Below, piece after piece: positions 38,166-44,081 of a stretch of DNA of 64,000 bases (the first letter of the stretch is position 1; each line of letters opens with the position of its first letter). The notes under the pieces were generated by a model. That model searched no databases and had not been told where the DNA came from. It saw only the letters and a list, made by a program, of their open reading frames with translations. The stretch comes from Dermatemys mawii. Its lineage: Eukaryota > Chordata > Testudines > Dermatemydidae. The stretch is from assembly GCA_007922305.1 (NCBI GenBank), contig ML677333.1, forward strand, positions 17,645,164 to 17,709,163, written 5' to 3'. Made by a program: the position numbers and the translations under genes.

Positions 38166-38619
38166 CCATTGTCCACACTATAAGGGCCCTGCCCAACCAT
38201 AGGAGGCACGGAACTTAAAAATCCTTGTAGGCCCAGATCCTCAGACATAAACACTCAACACTATGGTTCCTAAGTGGGATTTGGAACCTAACCCCATGCT
38301 TTTACTTCAAGCTTTTGCCACTGGAAGTAGGCTGGCACTCCTCCCCACACCTATAGGGTGTCCAAGTTACCTTCTTGGGACTTAATTGCTGTGCTGACCA
38401 GTGTATCCCGTCTCTCTCTCTCTGCCTTTTAGCTATGTGTGCTCCAACGAGAGGACTAGATCACTAGCCTAATGCTGCTGCACAAATGAGCAAGGGAGCT
38501 ACTGGCTCCTTTATATTGCCAAGCTCAGCACATGGAGAAAAACAGCCTCCAAGGGGCATTAGCCCCCACCCGATGCAGGTGGGCTGGGAGGGGAAGGATA
38601 TGCGGGCCCGGTCCCCTTA

Positions 38620-38958
38620 GTGGTGCCTGCAATGACTAAAAAGGAGGTGCTTGTTATAAGTACCTGCCTAAAAGGCAGCAAGGGAGCATTAGCAGTGGTA
38701 AAACAGCCAGCTAAGGGAGGGCTCCCTGAAGGAGTGCTGGTTCTCAGTAAAGTCATAACCCTACCTGCTGAACCCCAGAAAAAGGTGACTATACTAATCG
38801 CCAATAAAACAAGCCGTAATGTGCTTGTAAAACCAGGGCAAAAAATTGCAGACATCTTTAAGCCTAAAACCATTGTAAGACCCCAGTGTGACGCTGACGT
38901 CCCAATGATGGATCCTGCAAAATTCAATTTCAGGAACTCACCGTTGTCTGAGGAGTGA
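38620..38958 (+). pseudogene. Ty3/Gypsy protease-RT linker remnant
   Basis: 112 codons open. VLVLSKVITLPAEPQKKV then NKTSRNVLVKPGQKIADI is the conserved linker before Gypsy reverse transcriptase. The frame stops four bases into the next one (overlap at 38955-38958), a shift from the element's expected continuous pol frame. Confidence 0.65.
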
Positions 38959-39527
38959 AAGGATCGCCTAAAAAAAAAAAGCTTAGTAAAAGATCCAAGG
39001 TATTCTCACTGCATAAGTGGAACGTGAAATGTGCCAAAGGAGTAAAACATCACATCAGGCTACAACTTCCCCGACCCTTCCAAAAAAGATCTAGAAGAAT
39101 TGCTCTCTCTAAAATGGAAGATGTACGCCATCATCTTCAAGAGCTGATTGGGATTGGTATCATTAAAGAGTCCCGCAGTCCCTACGCCTCTCCCATTGTG
39201 GTGGTTCGTAAAAAGAGTGAAAAAATCCAAATGTGTATCGACTACCGCACCCTAAACAGGCGCACTATAGTTGATCAATACACCATGCCCCAAGTACAAG
39301 ATGCCTTGGATTGTTTGCTGGGTAGCCAGTGGTTCTCTGTGTTGGATCTTCGAAGTGAATACTACCAGATCCCTCTGGGAGAAGAAGATAAGAAAAAGAC
39401 AGCCTTCATCTGCCCATTAGGGTTCTACCAGTTCAAACGCATGCCCCAAGGGATCTCTGGGGCACCTGCCACATTTCAACGTCTTATGGAAAAAGTCGTG
39501 GGGGACATAAATCTACTGCAAGTTTAG
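38955..39527 (+). pseudogene. Ty3/Gypsy reverse transcriptase remnant
   Basis: 190 codons with GIGIIKESRSPYASPIVVV, CIDYRTLNRRT, FSVLDLRSEYYQIPLG and GFYQFKRMPQGISGAPATF in family order. The usual LRSGYYQI reads LRSEYYQI. Just after the frame ends, a one-base shift leads into YLNNLIVF, where the family has a YxDD catalytic pair; both Asp codons would have become Asn by G-to-A. Confidence 0.9.
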
Positions 39528-39591
39528 TTTATTTAAATAACCTAATTGTGTTTGAAAGAACCTTAAAGGAGCATAAAAAAAACTTCTTAAA

Positions 39592-40471
39592 GTGCTTAAT
39601 AGGTTGAAGGCGTATGGTTTAAAGCTTTCGATTAACAAATGCCAGTTCTGCAGAACCTCGGTAAAGTACGTGGGTCACATCGTGTCCCAAGAGGGTGTGA
39701 GCACTAATCCCAAAAAAATAAAAGGACTCACTACCTGGCCACATCCCAATAACCATAAAAAACTCAAAACCTTTCTTAAATTTAGTGGCTACTATCGCAA
39801 ATTTGTAAAAAACTATGCTACAATCGTAAAACCTCTAAATAATCTTACCAGGGAATACCAGTCCAACAAAAACAAATCTAAGACCAAAAATAAGGAAAAA
39901 TCCCCAAAGCCTCCTGTGCAGAGACACTATGGCCCCTTCGAACCGTTTGGGCCAAGGTGGAATAAAAGATGTAAAAGGGCGTTTCAAAAAATCATTACTC
40001 ACCTAACTCACGCTCCAGTCCTAGTCTTTGGTGACCCCAACAAGCCGTTTATCCTACATACCAATGCCAGTTTGAAGGGTCTGGAAGCAGTACTGTACCA
40101 AAAAGTGGAAGGCAAACGTAGCCTTTGCCAGCCAAGGACTGTCTGACAGTAAAACTCGCTATCCCATCCACAAGCTGGAGTTCTTGGCTTTAAAATGGGC
40201 CATCACCGAGAAATTTTGAAACTATTTGTATGGGGCTCAGTTCCAGGTGTGGAACGACAACAACCCATTGACTTATGTGTTGACAAGTGCTAAGCTGGAT
40301 GCTACAGGGCAAAAATGGGTGGCCGCCTTGGCTAGCTATAAGTTCAGCATTCAATACCACTCAGGAAAAAGCAATGTCGATGCAGATGCACTGTCCAGGC
40401 GTCCGCAGGCACCAAAAGTTGCTATAATACCCACAAATAAAGTAAAAGCCATTTGCAATGTAAGTCGGTGA
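39592..40471 (+). pseudogene. Ty3/Gypsy connection and RNase H remnant
   Basis: Two frames (39592-40146 and 40226-40471). The first has YGLKLSINKCQFCRTSVKY, FSGYYRKFVKNYA and FILHTNASLKGLEAVLYQK; the RNase H Asp of HTDAS is Asn. The second has QVWNDNNPLTYVLTSAKLD and SNVDADALSRRP, with its Asp residues kept. Between them TGA at 40217-40219 stops the frame. Confidence 0.85.
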
Positions 40472-40537
40472 GGGCCAGAAGCCCATAAAAGCCTTCACGA
40501 ATGGGTTGCAAAAGCGCTGGGCCTGCCCCCGGAATGC

Positions 40538-40729
40538 GTGCCTTCTGCCTCAGTGAACTATATTGCATTGAACCAATCTCCCTTGCCCACGCTCAATGCG
40601 GCTGACTGGCAAAAAGCCCAGCTACAAAATGTTGACATGCGTAATACATTACTCGCCAAAAGGGAAGGGCAAAGCCCAGCTGCGGTTGTCCCACCTACCC
40701 CAAAGGGTAAACTACTATTAAAAAAGTAA
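40538..40729 (+). pseudogene. Ty3/Gypsy spacer between RNase H and integrase
   Basis: 63 open codons (LNAADWQKAQLQNVDMRNTL) in the usual position of the linker before the integrase H2C2 finger. The following bases read VLPKKYRALAMRVLHND then FGHLEIKKP, a typical pre-finger block, before a stop. Confidence 0.6.
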
Positions 40730-40917
40730 ACCAAACTAAAACTGTTTCAGTGCGTGCTACACCGGGTAACTATGGACCCTTTACAAAAACAGCAAGCACA
40801 GCTAGTGTTGCCAAAGAAGTATCGAGCCCTGGCCATGAGGGTGCTGCATAATGACTTTGGGCATCTAGAAATAAAAAAACCCTAAAACTTATTCATAATA
40901 GGTTCTATTGGCCCCAA

Positions 40918-41654
40918 ATGGCTAAAATTGTTCGCAAAAAATGTAAGTCATGCGCTCAATGTGTTCAAAGAAAAACTCTGCCCACGAGGGCGGCATATCT
41001 CCAAAACATCACCAGCAACAAACCGTTGAAACTAGTATGCATCAATTTTTTGTCTCTAAAAGTAGACAGAAGGAATGTCAAAAACATCCTAGTAGCAACT
41101 AACCATTTCACACGGTATGCGCAGGCATATCCCACATGTAATCAGAGGGCCACCACTGTCGCTCGAGTACTGTGGAAAAAATATTTCTCAGTCTATAAAT
41201 TCCCAGCCCAAATACACTCCAATCAGGGGCGCAACTTTAAAAAAGTCACCTTCTAAAGGAGGTGCTAAAAATAGCGAAAATTAAAAAGTCTAGGACAACA
41301 CCTTATCACCCGCAAGGGGATCCCCAGCCAAAGAGGTTCAACCGAACCCTGTTGAATATGCTGGGGACTCTGCGACCAAAGCAGAAGGCAACCTTAAGCC
41401 AGCATGTCACATTTCTGGTGCATGCCTACAACGCCACCAGAAATGATGCTACAAAAGTCACTCCATATCTCTTGATGTTTGGGCAAAAACCCAAATTACC
41501 CATAAACCTGTGCTTTGGCGTATCAAAGGATGAAAAAAGCTATAAAACACATCAGCAATATGTATCCCGTCTTAAAAAAAAGCTGCAGAATGCTTACCGC
41601 CTAGCTACGCCTGCGGCTCAAAAAAAATGCAGACCGCAACAAACATCAATATAA
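40918..41654 (+). pseudogene. Ty3/Gypsy integrase remnant
   Basis: Frames 40918-41256 and 41262-41654 carry KCKSCAQCVQRKTLP (C2 half of the zinc finger), CINFLSLK, NHFTRYAQAYPT, AQIHSNQGRNF and TTPYHPQGDPQPKRFNRTL. In active members the three catalytic acids sit in these motifs as D, D and E; here they read N, N and K. Five bases separate the two frames, which are shifted relative to each other. Confidence 0.88.
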
Positions 41655-41839
41655 CGCTAGGGTACGTTTACAGGAGCTCCAGCCGGAAAACCAAGTCCTG
41701 CTGCAAAATTTGGGTATTGCCGGCAAACACAAAATAGCTGACAAATAAAATGCTATACCTTACCTAGTAATAAAAAAAACTAAAAGATCTGCCAGTCTAC
41801 AAAATCAAACCCAAAAAGGGTCCAGGGCAAATAAAGACG

Positions 41840-42517
41840 GTGCATAAAAACCTTTTGCTCTCTGTGGGGAAATTGGTAGGCACTCCTTATAAAATGGGCC
41901 ATAACAGGGCAGCCAGGCAAAACAAAAGTGCTAGGCCAAACCCGCCATCCAACATGGCCTGCGGGCGCTCTATAGCTAACCTACCCCTATTCAGCATGTC
42001 AAAAAGTGAGGCAGAGGAGAAAAATACAATCATGGCGTATCCCAAAATAAAGACAAGATCTCACTCTCGATCAGCTAAGCCAATAGAGAGCTTCCCTTCC
42101 TCAGCTCTAAACCCCATGGCAAAGGTATTTAGGCCTGTTACTGGCACCCCTGTGCCATCAATGGGACCCTTGTGTGGTAACACAAACAGCTTATTCAACA
42201 GTAAAAACATCCAGCTAAAGGGGGCCCTAGGCACATTAAACCTTCCACGCTCAAAACCGAAAATGCAGGGACCTATGCCAGTAACCAAGAAATCCCCAAA
42301 GAAAACCTCTTCATCCGTCACCCAAAAAAATGTCACTCCCACTCCTGCCACAAAAATCTTCAATAAATGGAACAGGGTAATAAAACCAGTAAAACGGCTA
42401 ACTTATAATGCACCTGGGGTGATTAGTAAGGAGTCAATACACTTAGCACACAGGTTTGTAAGAGCTAAAGTGGGATTTCTAAGGCTCTTTGGCGGAAACC
42501 AAAAGTTGGTATTATAG
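41840..42517 (+). pseudogene. Ty3/Gypsy integrase C-terminal tail
   Basis: 225 open codons beginning MHKNLLLSVGKLV, the end of the Gypsy integrase C-terminal domain, with a long Lys/Asn/Ser-rich tail (PVKRLTYNAPGVISKE, ARAKVGFLRLF-like end). It is not an envelope: I see no signal peptide or membrane segment. The basic composition may partly reflect G-to-A change. Confidence 0.65.
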
Positions 42518-42562
42518 GAAGTGTGATTTGTCGGGACGACAAATTCTTGGCTGGGGGGTGGA

Positions 42563-44081
42563 TGTAAGCAGTGTCAAGAATAAAATATATTCTGACATCT
42601 GGTGGTAAATTATAAAAATTGCAGTAAGTTATAAAAAATAACTTTGGGGCTGATCAATTTGCATAGACACACCCACTGCGCCTAGCCTGAGCTCACAGCA
42701 GCCCACATAGCCACTTCGGCTGGTGTGGGGGCCCAGTTTCTATGTTATTGGGGCAGAAATAATAAAGTGATGTTACCCTAATTATGTAAATAAAGGACTA
42801 TAAACATGTACTTGGCCCTTGTTATGATGGAGGAACTCGCCATCATCTAGGTAGCACTCACTGGGCAAGGGCCAGGCATTTCAAAACACTCTGAGATTTG
42901 AGAGAGGCTGTGAACAAGCAGCTATACCTTTTGGTGAGGGCTTTGTCTAAGGACCCCACTGGCCTATTGTACCCTGTCTCTCTCCACTGTGAAATGTCAG
43001 AACTAAATTTTGCTTCCATTAGGAGCCTGGTTTTAGGCTGCTAAGCTAAAATTGCTTTAGGCTCACTGGGGCACCTGCACTAAGGCTCCCCTACTGTATG
43101 CTAAAATCTCTTAAAAGCTAAAATCACCTAAAAGCTAAAAAAATCACTAAGCACTGTCTTAAGTTGGGGGGCCTAAAAATAGTGCAGTGTGGTTGTTGCA
43201 GCAAAGCAGTCTGTGTGTCGGCTAGCAGGATGGCTAGCGGAGTCGTTGGTGCTGCGGGCAGAGTGACCGGCACGGCAAAGCTGTCCATGTGTCAACTAGC
43301 GGAGCCGTTGGTGCTGCTGGCGAAGTGACTGGCGCGGCAAAGCTGTCCGTGTGTCGGCTAGCAGGACGGCTAGCGAAGCCATTTGTGTTGCTAGCAGAGT
43401 AACTGGCACTGCAGAGCAGTTCGAGTATCGGTTAGCAAAGCAGCTAGCAAATCAACGAGCAGAGCGGTTCGTGGGACGGCCAGCGGAGCAGAGCGAATTG
43501 CGGTGAGGGCCGCAGCAAAACCTCACAGAGAGGCGGCGCAGTCGGCCTCGGACCATGTAAGGTGCCCCTTGCCCTACCCTCCATTTCCACCCAGGCTGGG
43601 AGGTAAAACTCTGCAAATTAACTCTTAAACTAACCAGAAACAAAAACTCTTGGGCTGTTGAACTTTTGGAACTATTGGGTGATTTCTGAATTGCTGGGCT
43701 CCAAAAACTTTTAGGCTGTGGGACTTTTGGGAACTTTGGGTAATTTTTGGGTTACTGAACTCACAAACCTAAAGGAGGGGACACAGCCCAATCAGCTGGG
43801 GTGGTGGTTTGCTCAGGGGTTGGTTTATGACCCTAGTTGTGGTGTTTTTCCCAATTTAATAATATCATTTATCTCATGTTAATAAAATTTTCTAATACAC
43901 CAATCTGTGCTTGCAAAAGAAAAAGTATTGCCTCTTTAAGGCGCCCAGTGGGGTGTTAGGATATTTCCCAGGTCACTGGGTGGGGGCTCAAGCCAGTTTT
44001 GCCTTGTGTTGTTAAAAGGGGACCCCTATGTACTAAACCTGGCCCTTACTGCTATTAACCTGGCCTGGCAAAAGGGTTACA
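42563..44081 (+). repeat. 3' LTR of the Ty3/Gypsy element
   Basis: Starts TGTAAGC directly after a polypurine tract and ends GGGTTACA, giving TGTAA...TTACA inverted ends. Contains AATAAA near 42760 and 42790, a tandem array at 43201-43480 and a second polyadenylation-like AATAAA near 43878. The boundary on the right rests only on the inverted ends. Confidence 0.6.
43201..43480 (+). repeat. Tandem repeat in the LTR, 62-74 bp units
   Basis: About 3.5 to 4 units each begin GCAAAGC(A/T)GTC, then GTGTGTCGGCTAGCAG and GTTGGTGCTG. Unit starts are near 43201, 43275, 43337 and 43411. The array is GC-rich, unlike the A-rich pol region. Confidence 0.8.

Follow-up and report, generated by a model that had tools for sequence, protein, structure and literature searches.

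That long terminal repeat (LTR) elements of vertebrates undergo DNA editing is established (Knisbacher and Levanon 2016, as reported in excerpts of PMC6523648 and PMC6497032). Excerpts of further papers describe the systems closest to the one considered here. Mouse Apobec3 causes a G-to-A hypermutation of endogenous mouse mammary tumor virus (MMTV) that is specific to the 3′ LTR (Shaffer et al. 2025, PMC12548423), and such 3′-LTR-only edits were reported there as new for proviruses in 2025. In human immunodeficiency virus type 1 (HIV-1), editing gradients are described as not always evident (Armitage et al. 2012, PMC3310730). In a lizard, G-to-A editing was found in L1 elements but not in LTR elements, lizard APOBEC1 is active, and APOBEC3 is missing from non-mammalian genomes (Lindic et al. 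2013, PMC3880073). Here we describe an edited Ty3/gypsy element on the plus strand of a 64,000-nucleotide (64-kb) stretch of the genome of the turtle Dermatemys mawii, which we call the window (G000:C8:17645164-17709163, in an assembly of 1.815 Gb and 1,030 contigs). An earlier note, made from the letters of this stretch alone, had read the element as hypermutated from G to A by an APOBEC/AID-type deaminase.

As far as those excerpts go, the turtle element family shares several features with the known systems. With MMTV and Apobec3 it has in common plus-strand G-to-A changes, 3′-LTR edits that are missing from the 5′ LTR, and successive edits that create new targets. Unlike MMTV, a mammalian retrovirus edited by APOBEC3, it is a turtle Ty3/gypsy element for which the candidate enzymes are APOBEC1-like. 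It resembles the cases of Knisbacher and Levanon (2016) in being a G-to-A-edited LTR element of a non-mammal, a class in which editing is strong in zebra finch, and it resembles lizard L1 editing in its reptile host and in having APOBEC1 as candidate enzyme. The all-or-nothing distribution of edits recalls HIV-1 and APOBEC3G, as does the hypothesis of gradients with minima at polypurine tracts (PMC3310730), although APOBEC3G prefers to turn GG into AG, whereas GA is preferred here. The phenomenon itself is known already; the host, the element class, and the 3′-LTR pattern extend it. Neither editing of turtle Ty3/gypsy elements nor a turtle APOBEC1 array appeared in the titles or abstracts of the best-ranked literature matches, drawn from a collection short of subscription papers and of the 2016 survey. 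Repeated editing of a young reptile family shows which enzymes could hold such a defense without APOBEC3.

G-to-A changes in the window copy

We gathered sister copies in two ways, by searching the genome with the reverse transcriptase (RT) domain and by searching its DNA with the integrase piece; the second search scored 40 of 67 candidates and yielded 40 matches, one of them the window itself. Using sister copy L004 as reference and L003, on contig C57, as third copy, we polarized the differences over 38.6 to 41.2 kb of the window. The window lineage had acquired 144 G-to-A changes, compared with 11 C-to-T, 11 A-to-G, 14 T-to-C, and 17 transversions, a direction far beyond chance and one that bears out the hypermutation first read from the letters. 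The L004 lineage, treated in the same way, had 12 G-to-A, 9 C-to-T, 31 A-to-G, and 8 T-to-C changes; its A-to-G excess is expected from parallel G-to-A change in the window and L003. With L011 as reference, G-to-A changes outnumbered C-to-T changes by 91:5 in positions 38613-40400 and by 145:14 in positions 40410-42410, and the two rates were very unequal with each of these references and also in the LTR tail.

Base composition carries the same bias. On the plus strand, the observed/expected ratio of the dinucleotide GA was 0.58 in positions 38600-42560 versus 0.98 in positions 1-38600 and 0.92 in positions 42560-64000, the last of which include the LTR. The mirror dinucleotide TC was not depleted (0.96 versus 1.01 and 0.98 in the flanks). 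When the 64-kb window was searched for the segment with the strongest excess of AA over GA, the best was 39393-43204, with a log-likelihood gain of 54.5, and none of 60 block shuffles exceeded 19.9. The mirror test for TC and TT reached 13.4, inside the shuffle range (maximum 15.7).

The edits continue into the 3′ LTR. As references for its tail (43480-44081), we took four LTRs of the same subfamily in six pairs. LTRs of the type found on contig C16 gave noisy counts, since the R-U5 tail of the window LTR belongs to another subfamily, and they were not used. The three pairs without L081 yielded 33 to 34 G-to-A versus 0 to 2 C-to-T changes, with 27 of 41 to 42 GA sites edited; the three pairs with L081 yielded 22 to 23 versus 1 to 2. 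L081 (G000:C7:84994563-84995174) is an LTR of the abundant subfamily that is itself edited at 14 to 15 of 41 to 42 GA sites, so editing reaches beyond the copies listed. The edited element thus spans 38599 to the end of the 3′ LTR at 44081, and the interval first proposed for it, 38955..42517, was too narrow.

The changes have a marked sequence context. When the base after each edited G was tabulated, as the earlier note had proposed, it was A in 110 of 144 cases. Editing affected 110/185 GA sites, 23/144 GG sites, 4/127 GC sites, and 7/127 GT sites (34/398 for the non-GA sites together). Preference for GA on the plus strand implies a 5′-TC target on the minus strand, and this context speaks against the preferences of both AID and enzymes like APOBEC3G. 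A CC target of the APOBEC3G type, which would appear as GG on the plus strand, was tried and rejected: nearly all of the few edited GG sites were ones where the next G was edited as well. With L011 as reference, and over the two segments given above for that copy (leaving out two GG sites that had some other base in second position), the first G was edited at 33 of 65 GG sites where the second G had become A, compared with 4 of 155 where the second G was unchanged. Sequential editing, from TCC to TUC to TUU, would leave GG edits almost confined to sites with an edited next G in this way.

The same signal is present at the protein level. Among 545 aligned columns, 100 differed, and 63 of these could be explained by G-to-A change alone, compared with 4 by C-to-T; the next base was A in 54 of the 63. 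In a control with 15 relatives, the window had 22 G-to-A-only changes among 36 differences, and the relatives had 0 to 9, the highest being Alligator P0085 (9 of 30 differences).

These changes fall on catalytic residues. All six altered positions listed in the earlier note are present in the window letters: the RT catalytic Asp-Asp codons, now Asn-Asn (YLNN, two positions, 39536..39541, plus strand), the RNase H Asp codon at 40063, now Asn (HTNAS), and the integrase D, D, and E codons at 41044, 41221, and 41331, which read N, N, and K (CINF, HSNQG, and PKRFNRT). Among the 34 sister loci given, some of which are pieces of one copy, Asp or Glu stands at these positions in 26/28, 26/28, 23/30, 29/34, 21/29, and 28/29 readable loci, respectively, and the combination of lost residues differs from copy to copy. 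The question of whether close relatives share the Asn or Lys residues had a divided answer: unedited close relatives are acidic at most positions, but several sisters share Asn, and those that do are mostly edited themselves. Point change with few insertions or deletions had also been proposed, and the window row indeed has gap runs of only 1, 1, 8, and 1 columns over 2.58 kb, alignment ends aside.

Edited sister copies, their gradient, and their LTR pairs

Edited and unedited copies occur together in this genome. We aligned the integrase piece in 30 rows, made up of the window plus 29 of the other 39 matches. Nine rows (the window and L024 to L031) were edited, with 20 to 59 G-to-A and 0 to 4 C-to-T changes, and 21 rows (L032 to L052) were unedited, with 0 to 16 G-to-A and 0 to 25 C-to-T changes. 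L031, with 20 G-to-A changes, is intermediate, and among the unedited rows L049 and L051 have 6 edited GA sites each. The edited rows represent about seven independent insertions, since L026 and L027 look like one place assembled twice and L029 and L030 share a short contig and have equal counts. Because the query was edited and the rows were the best-scoring ones, the 9/30 share is no estimate for the population. The copy on C508 has 140 G-to-A, 0 C-to-T, 0 A-to-G, and 1 T-to-C change and 1 transversion in 3,808 sites, its edits standing against hardly any background of other change. The unedited copies on C72, C9, and C26 have 0 to 2 edited GA sites each over their aligned stretches. With near-identical unedited copies beside heavily edited ones, the family is a clean test bed.

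Editing rises along the element in sister copies. In five of them (C49, C6b, C46, C20, and C508), 99/624 GA sites were edited in gag, 256/639 in RT-RNase H, 178/350 in integrase, and 230/400 in the final stretch ahead of the 3′ LTR. The gag region was below the rest in all five copies (Fisher P = 2e-6 to 4e-19). The gradient is not monotonic in C46 (0.27, 0.51, 0.57, 0.45), and C508, whose gag piece covers just 650 sites, drops slightly in its final stretch (0.51 to 0.46). A sixth copy, C6a, whose gag piece had no match, went from 49/83 up to 71/79. The last three stretches of the window copy had 79/127, 52/70, and 55/80 GA sites edited.

Four sister insertions with both LTRs have matching 4-bp target duplications (C49, TGTG; C6b, CTCT; C46, ATTA; and the unedited C16, GACA), so both LTRs of each belong to one insertion. 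We compared the R-U5 tails (389 to 400 bases) of the two LTRs; the tail of C20 was excluded for a run of N. Three of the LTR stretches retrieved, L053, L060, and L061, contain runs of N. The 5′ and 3′ tails differed at 14 sites in C49, 15 in C6b, and 7 in C46, and 11, 13, and 7 of these, respectively (31 in all), paired a G in the 5′ tail with an A in the 3′ tail, and no case of the reverse occurred. The unedited C16 had no differences, and in C45, which is probably a second assembly of C46, 9/9 differences were 5′ G and 3′ A. Counted by GA site over C49, C6b, and C46, 24 were edited in the 3′ LTR only, 9 in both, and none in the 5′ LTR alone. A single template gives rise to both LTRs in standard reverse transcription. 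The MMTV account adds that late in the process the 3′-LTR minus strand is displaced and becomes single-stranded again (Shaffer et al. 2025, PMC12548423). Our counts suggest that reverse transcription generally leaves such 3′-LTR-only edits, in Ty3/gypsy elements as well, and they are a reason for caution when LTR divergence is used to date insertions of this kind.

A proposed host deaminase and its alternatives

The R-U5 asymmetry and the gradient fit minus-strand editing in reverse transcription, and we regard it as nearly certain that this Ty3/gypsy element was edited by a deaminase during that process. A host cytidine deaminase with a 5′-TC preference would gain access to the complementary DNA and edit its minus strand while it is single-stranded. 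C-to-U changes on that strand would become G-to-A changes on the plus strand, mostly at GA, and a first edit in GGA would turn the adjoining G into a new target. If the evidence from sister insertions holds for the window copy, that copy would have been inactivated at once and dead at integration, its 5′ part having been lost later or never present. The observation made in the earlier note is confirmed and its interpretation supported.

A search of the genome with the Pfam family APOBEC_N gave 13 exon matches above the cut-off, comprising AID (three exons), seven APOBEC1-like matches, and one match each on C98, C30, and C42. AID (L016) lies at about 35.90 Mb on C28, and its top match among solved structures is AID (E = 5.7e-55). 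Five APOBEC1-like open frames adjoin it at 35.91-35.97 Mb, and two further matches lie on C231, so the APOBEC_N matches outline a tandem expansion of APOBEC1-like genes next to AID (C28:35897680-35965498 and C231:2964-17290). Each of L017 to L022 has the zinc-site motif H-x-E...P-C-x2-C in an open frame. Human APOBEC1 (6x91) is the top solved match of L017, L018, and L022, the three that were searched; L019 to L021 and the second gene on C231 appear APOBEC1-like by their look beside these. The match on C42 is broken by stops, and the one on C98 we take to be APOBEC2-like. An NCBIfam search of four deaminase pieces returned no families.

TC is a favored target of APOBEC1. It is also one of APOBEC3, according to the abstract of PMC7449416. 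APOBEC1 is the probable editing enzyme, most likely as one or more APOBEC1-like proteins from the tandem array beside AID. That the deaminase was some other or unrecognized member of the family is an unlikely but serious alternative. The activity of the array is predicted from sequence, and the C30 match was left unread, both of which leave room for another enzyme; against this, the APOBEC_N matches are dominated by AID and the seven APOBEC1-like genes, and all three APOBEC1-like pieces searched match human APOBEC1 best. With somewhat less confidence than in the enzyme itself, we lean toward the view that the turtle APOBEC1 array fills the role of APOBEC3, mutating Ty3/gypsy cDNA repeatedly and editing it a second time, late, once the minus strand at the 3′ LTR has been displaced. 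If so, insertions with two LTRs hold a built-in record of when within replication editing took place.

Several observations weigh against deaminase editing during reverse transcription as the whole account. The window copy has neither 5′ LTR nor gag, and the gradient and LTR tests cover sister copies only; the proposal that it was edited during its own reverse transcription draws its support from the gradient and LTR asymmetry of sister insertions, the window copy having lost its 5′ end. The polarity copy L003 is itself mildly biased, with 79 G-to-A versus 52 C-to-T, 63 A-to-G, and 47 T-to-C changes. In 12 of the 100 differing protein columns (2 of them in RT, the other 10 in the RT/RNase H piece), the window residue also occurs in some turtle or alligator relative. 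The asymmetry between LTRs is weak in the U3 heads, which we compared over 380 bases (600-base heads gave a 754-column alignment and were replaced). There, 13 GA sites were edited in the 3′ LTR only, 4 in the 5′ LTR only, and 16 in both; 25 differences were 5′ G and 3′ A and 13 were 5′ A and 3′ G, and C20 has 1 3′-only and 1 5′-only site. The U3 heads differ at other bases too (in C46, 10/378 non-G/A differences versus 0/396 in the tail), and such differences within one insertion (LTR pairs L053, L054, and L057 to L060) are not accounted for by the editing model. Finally, for 20 of the 21 pairings of edited copies, more GA edits were shared than expected under independence; the remaining pair equaled the expectation, and the permutation P was <0.05 for 8 of the 21. 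The strongest pairs were L025-L028 (29 versus 22.4) and window-L024 (33 versus 27.6). Either hot spots or a partly shared history would give such an excess.

The last point would be expected if a single edited ancestor had multiplied and its edits had been inherited, and the GA edits of L028 are nearly nested in those of L025 (29/30). We consider such an origin improbable. The excess is mostly small, and each edited copy has edits that are absent from the others. Only one derived change other than G-to-A is shared between any edited copies, the target duplications differ (TGTG, CTCT, and ATTA), and catalytic residues were lost in differing combinations. We take the shared edits to be mainly repeated editing of preferred sites, and there may be some shared history among edited copies, above all between L025 and L028.

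Editing by AID according to its WRC preference is more improbable still. The gene is present in the genome, but at GYW, the plus-strand form of the WRC hot spot, G was edited at 8/122 sites versus 110/185 at GA; of the APOBEC/AID-type enzyme first proposed, the AID part is unsupported. Slow decay after integration by methyl-CpG deamination, or repeat-induced point mutation, can be dismissed, because although CpG accounts for 16/144 of the window G-to-A changes and C-to-T changes equal or exceed G-to-A in several unedited rows (in L052, 25 versus 16), these processes hit both strands, whereas the window has 144 G-to-A versus 11 C-to-T changes, 128/144 of the former outside CpG, and C508 has only 2 changes beside its 140 G-to-A.

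Structure of the element and its relatives

The window copy is a 5′-truncated Ty3/gypsy element. Its internal part starts upstream of RT and reaches the polypurine tract (38599..42562, plus strand, delimited by blastn against sister pieces), and its 3′ LTR follows. Pfam matches, some below curated cut-offs, place RT, RNase H, and integrase in that order. Nine sister pieces reach the left end: their blastn matches start at 38599 in seven (L004 to L006, L008, and L012 to L014), one base earlier (38598) for L011, and only at 38613 for L003, and in L004 there is further sequence upstream of the point matching 38599. The truncation junction accordingly lies at 38598..38599, as read from the flanking letters. 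Besides the 3′ LTR, no second, 5′ LTR was found within the 64-kb window, and the flanks of the copy showed no 4-bp target duplication that matched; lacking two LTRs and a target-site duplication, it is a truncated copy.

An RT fragment in an open frame occupies 38952..39524 (plus strand; PF00078, E = 9.5e-18). Among the 120 of 515 protein matches listed, its best match is from Lepidochelys kempii (82% identity), and the named matches highest in identity also include those from the turtles Caretta caretta (81%) and Lepidochelys olivacea (86%). A search of the fragment against viral contigs gave 15 pattern-matching stretches, none of which was confirmed. The end of RT and RNase H follow in broken frames (39577..40468, plus strand; PF17919, E = 6.7e-14), with PF17917 matches at E = 1.1e-4 and 1e-4, both below its curated cut-off. 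The zinc-binding and core domains of integrase lie in two frames (40855..41651, plus strand; PF17921, E = 5.1e-9); PF00665 at E = 2e-5 and PF13683 at E = 0.004 also match, each below its curated cut-off. The integrase piece matched 8 proteins with identities no higher than 53%, too distant for close substitution counts. A C-terminal open frame of 247 amino acids (41774..42514, plus strand) has no Pfam match. Directly 5′ of the 3′ LTR is a 14-base polypurine tract with its G-run intact (42549..42562, plus strand), which is identical in 4 of 7 sister copies and one base off in the other 3.

The edited 3′ LTR (42563..44081, plus strand; TGTAA...TTACA) is preceded by the polypurine tract, and its ends match those of sister LTRs. 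It contains a degenerate tandem repeat of three copies, family D1, found by a repeat search (43189..43441, plus strand). Among copies read to both ends, some of which contain runs of N, LTR length ranges from 1,372 to 1,764. The R-U5 part of the window LTR (43480-44081) is of a subfamily far commoner than that of the LTRs in copies close to the internal part; this abundant subfamily had 3,094 first-look candidates, of which 40 were scored, the best other match having 91% identity. The window element is a mosaic in this respect, its internal part and its R-U5 subfamily having different relatives.

Just 3′ of the 5′ LTR, a short stretch resembling a primer-binding site is conserved in L054, L058, L060, L062, and L066. 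Presumably it is akin to the tRNA-Pro type of some retroviruses. On the short contigs C290, C508, C926, and C839, there are two RT regions each, 5.2 to 7.1 kb apart (6.96 to 7.10 kb on C290, C508, and C926), and on C508 the LTR between them runs directly into the next internal region. These paired regions may be tandem elements or assembly artifacts. Match positions are near-equal within the contig pairs C45/C46, C2/C3, C32/C33, and C860/C861, which suggests that both haplotypes were assembled in places.

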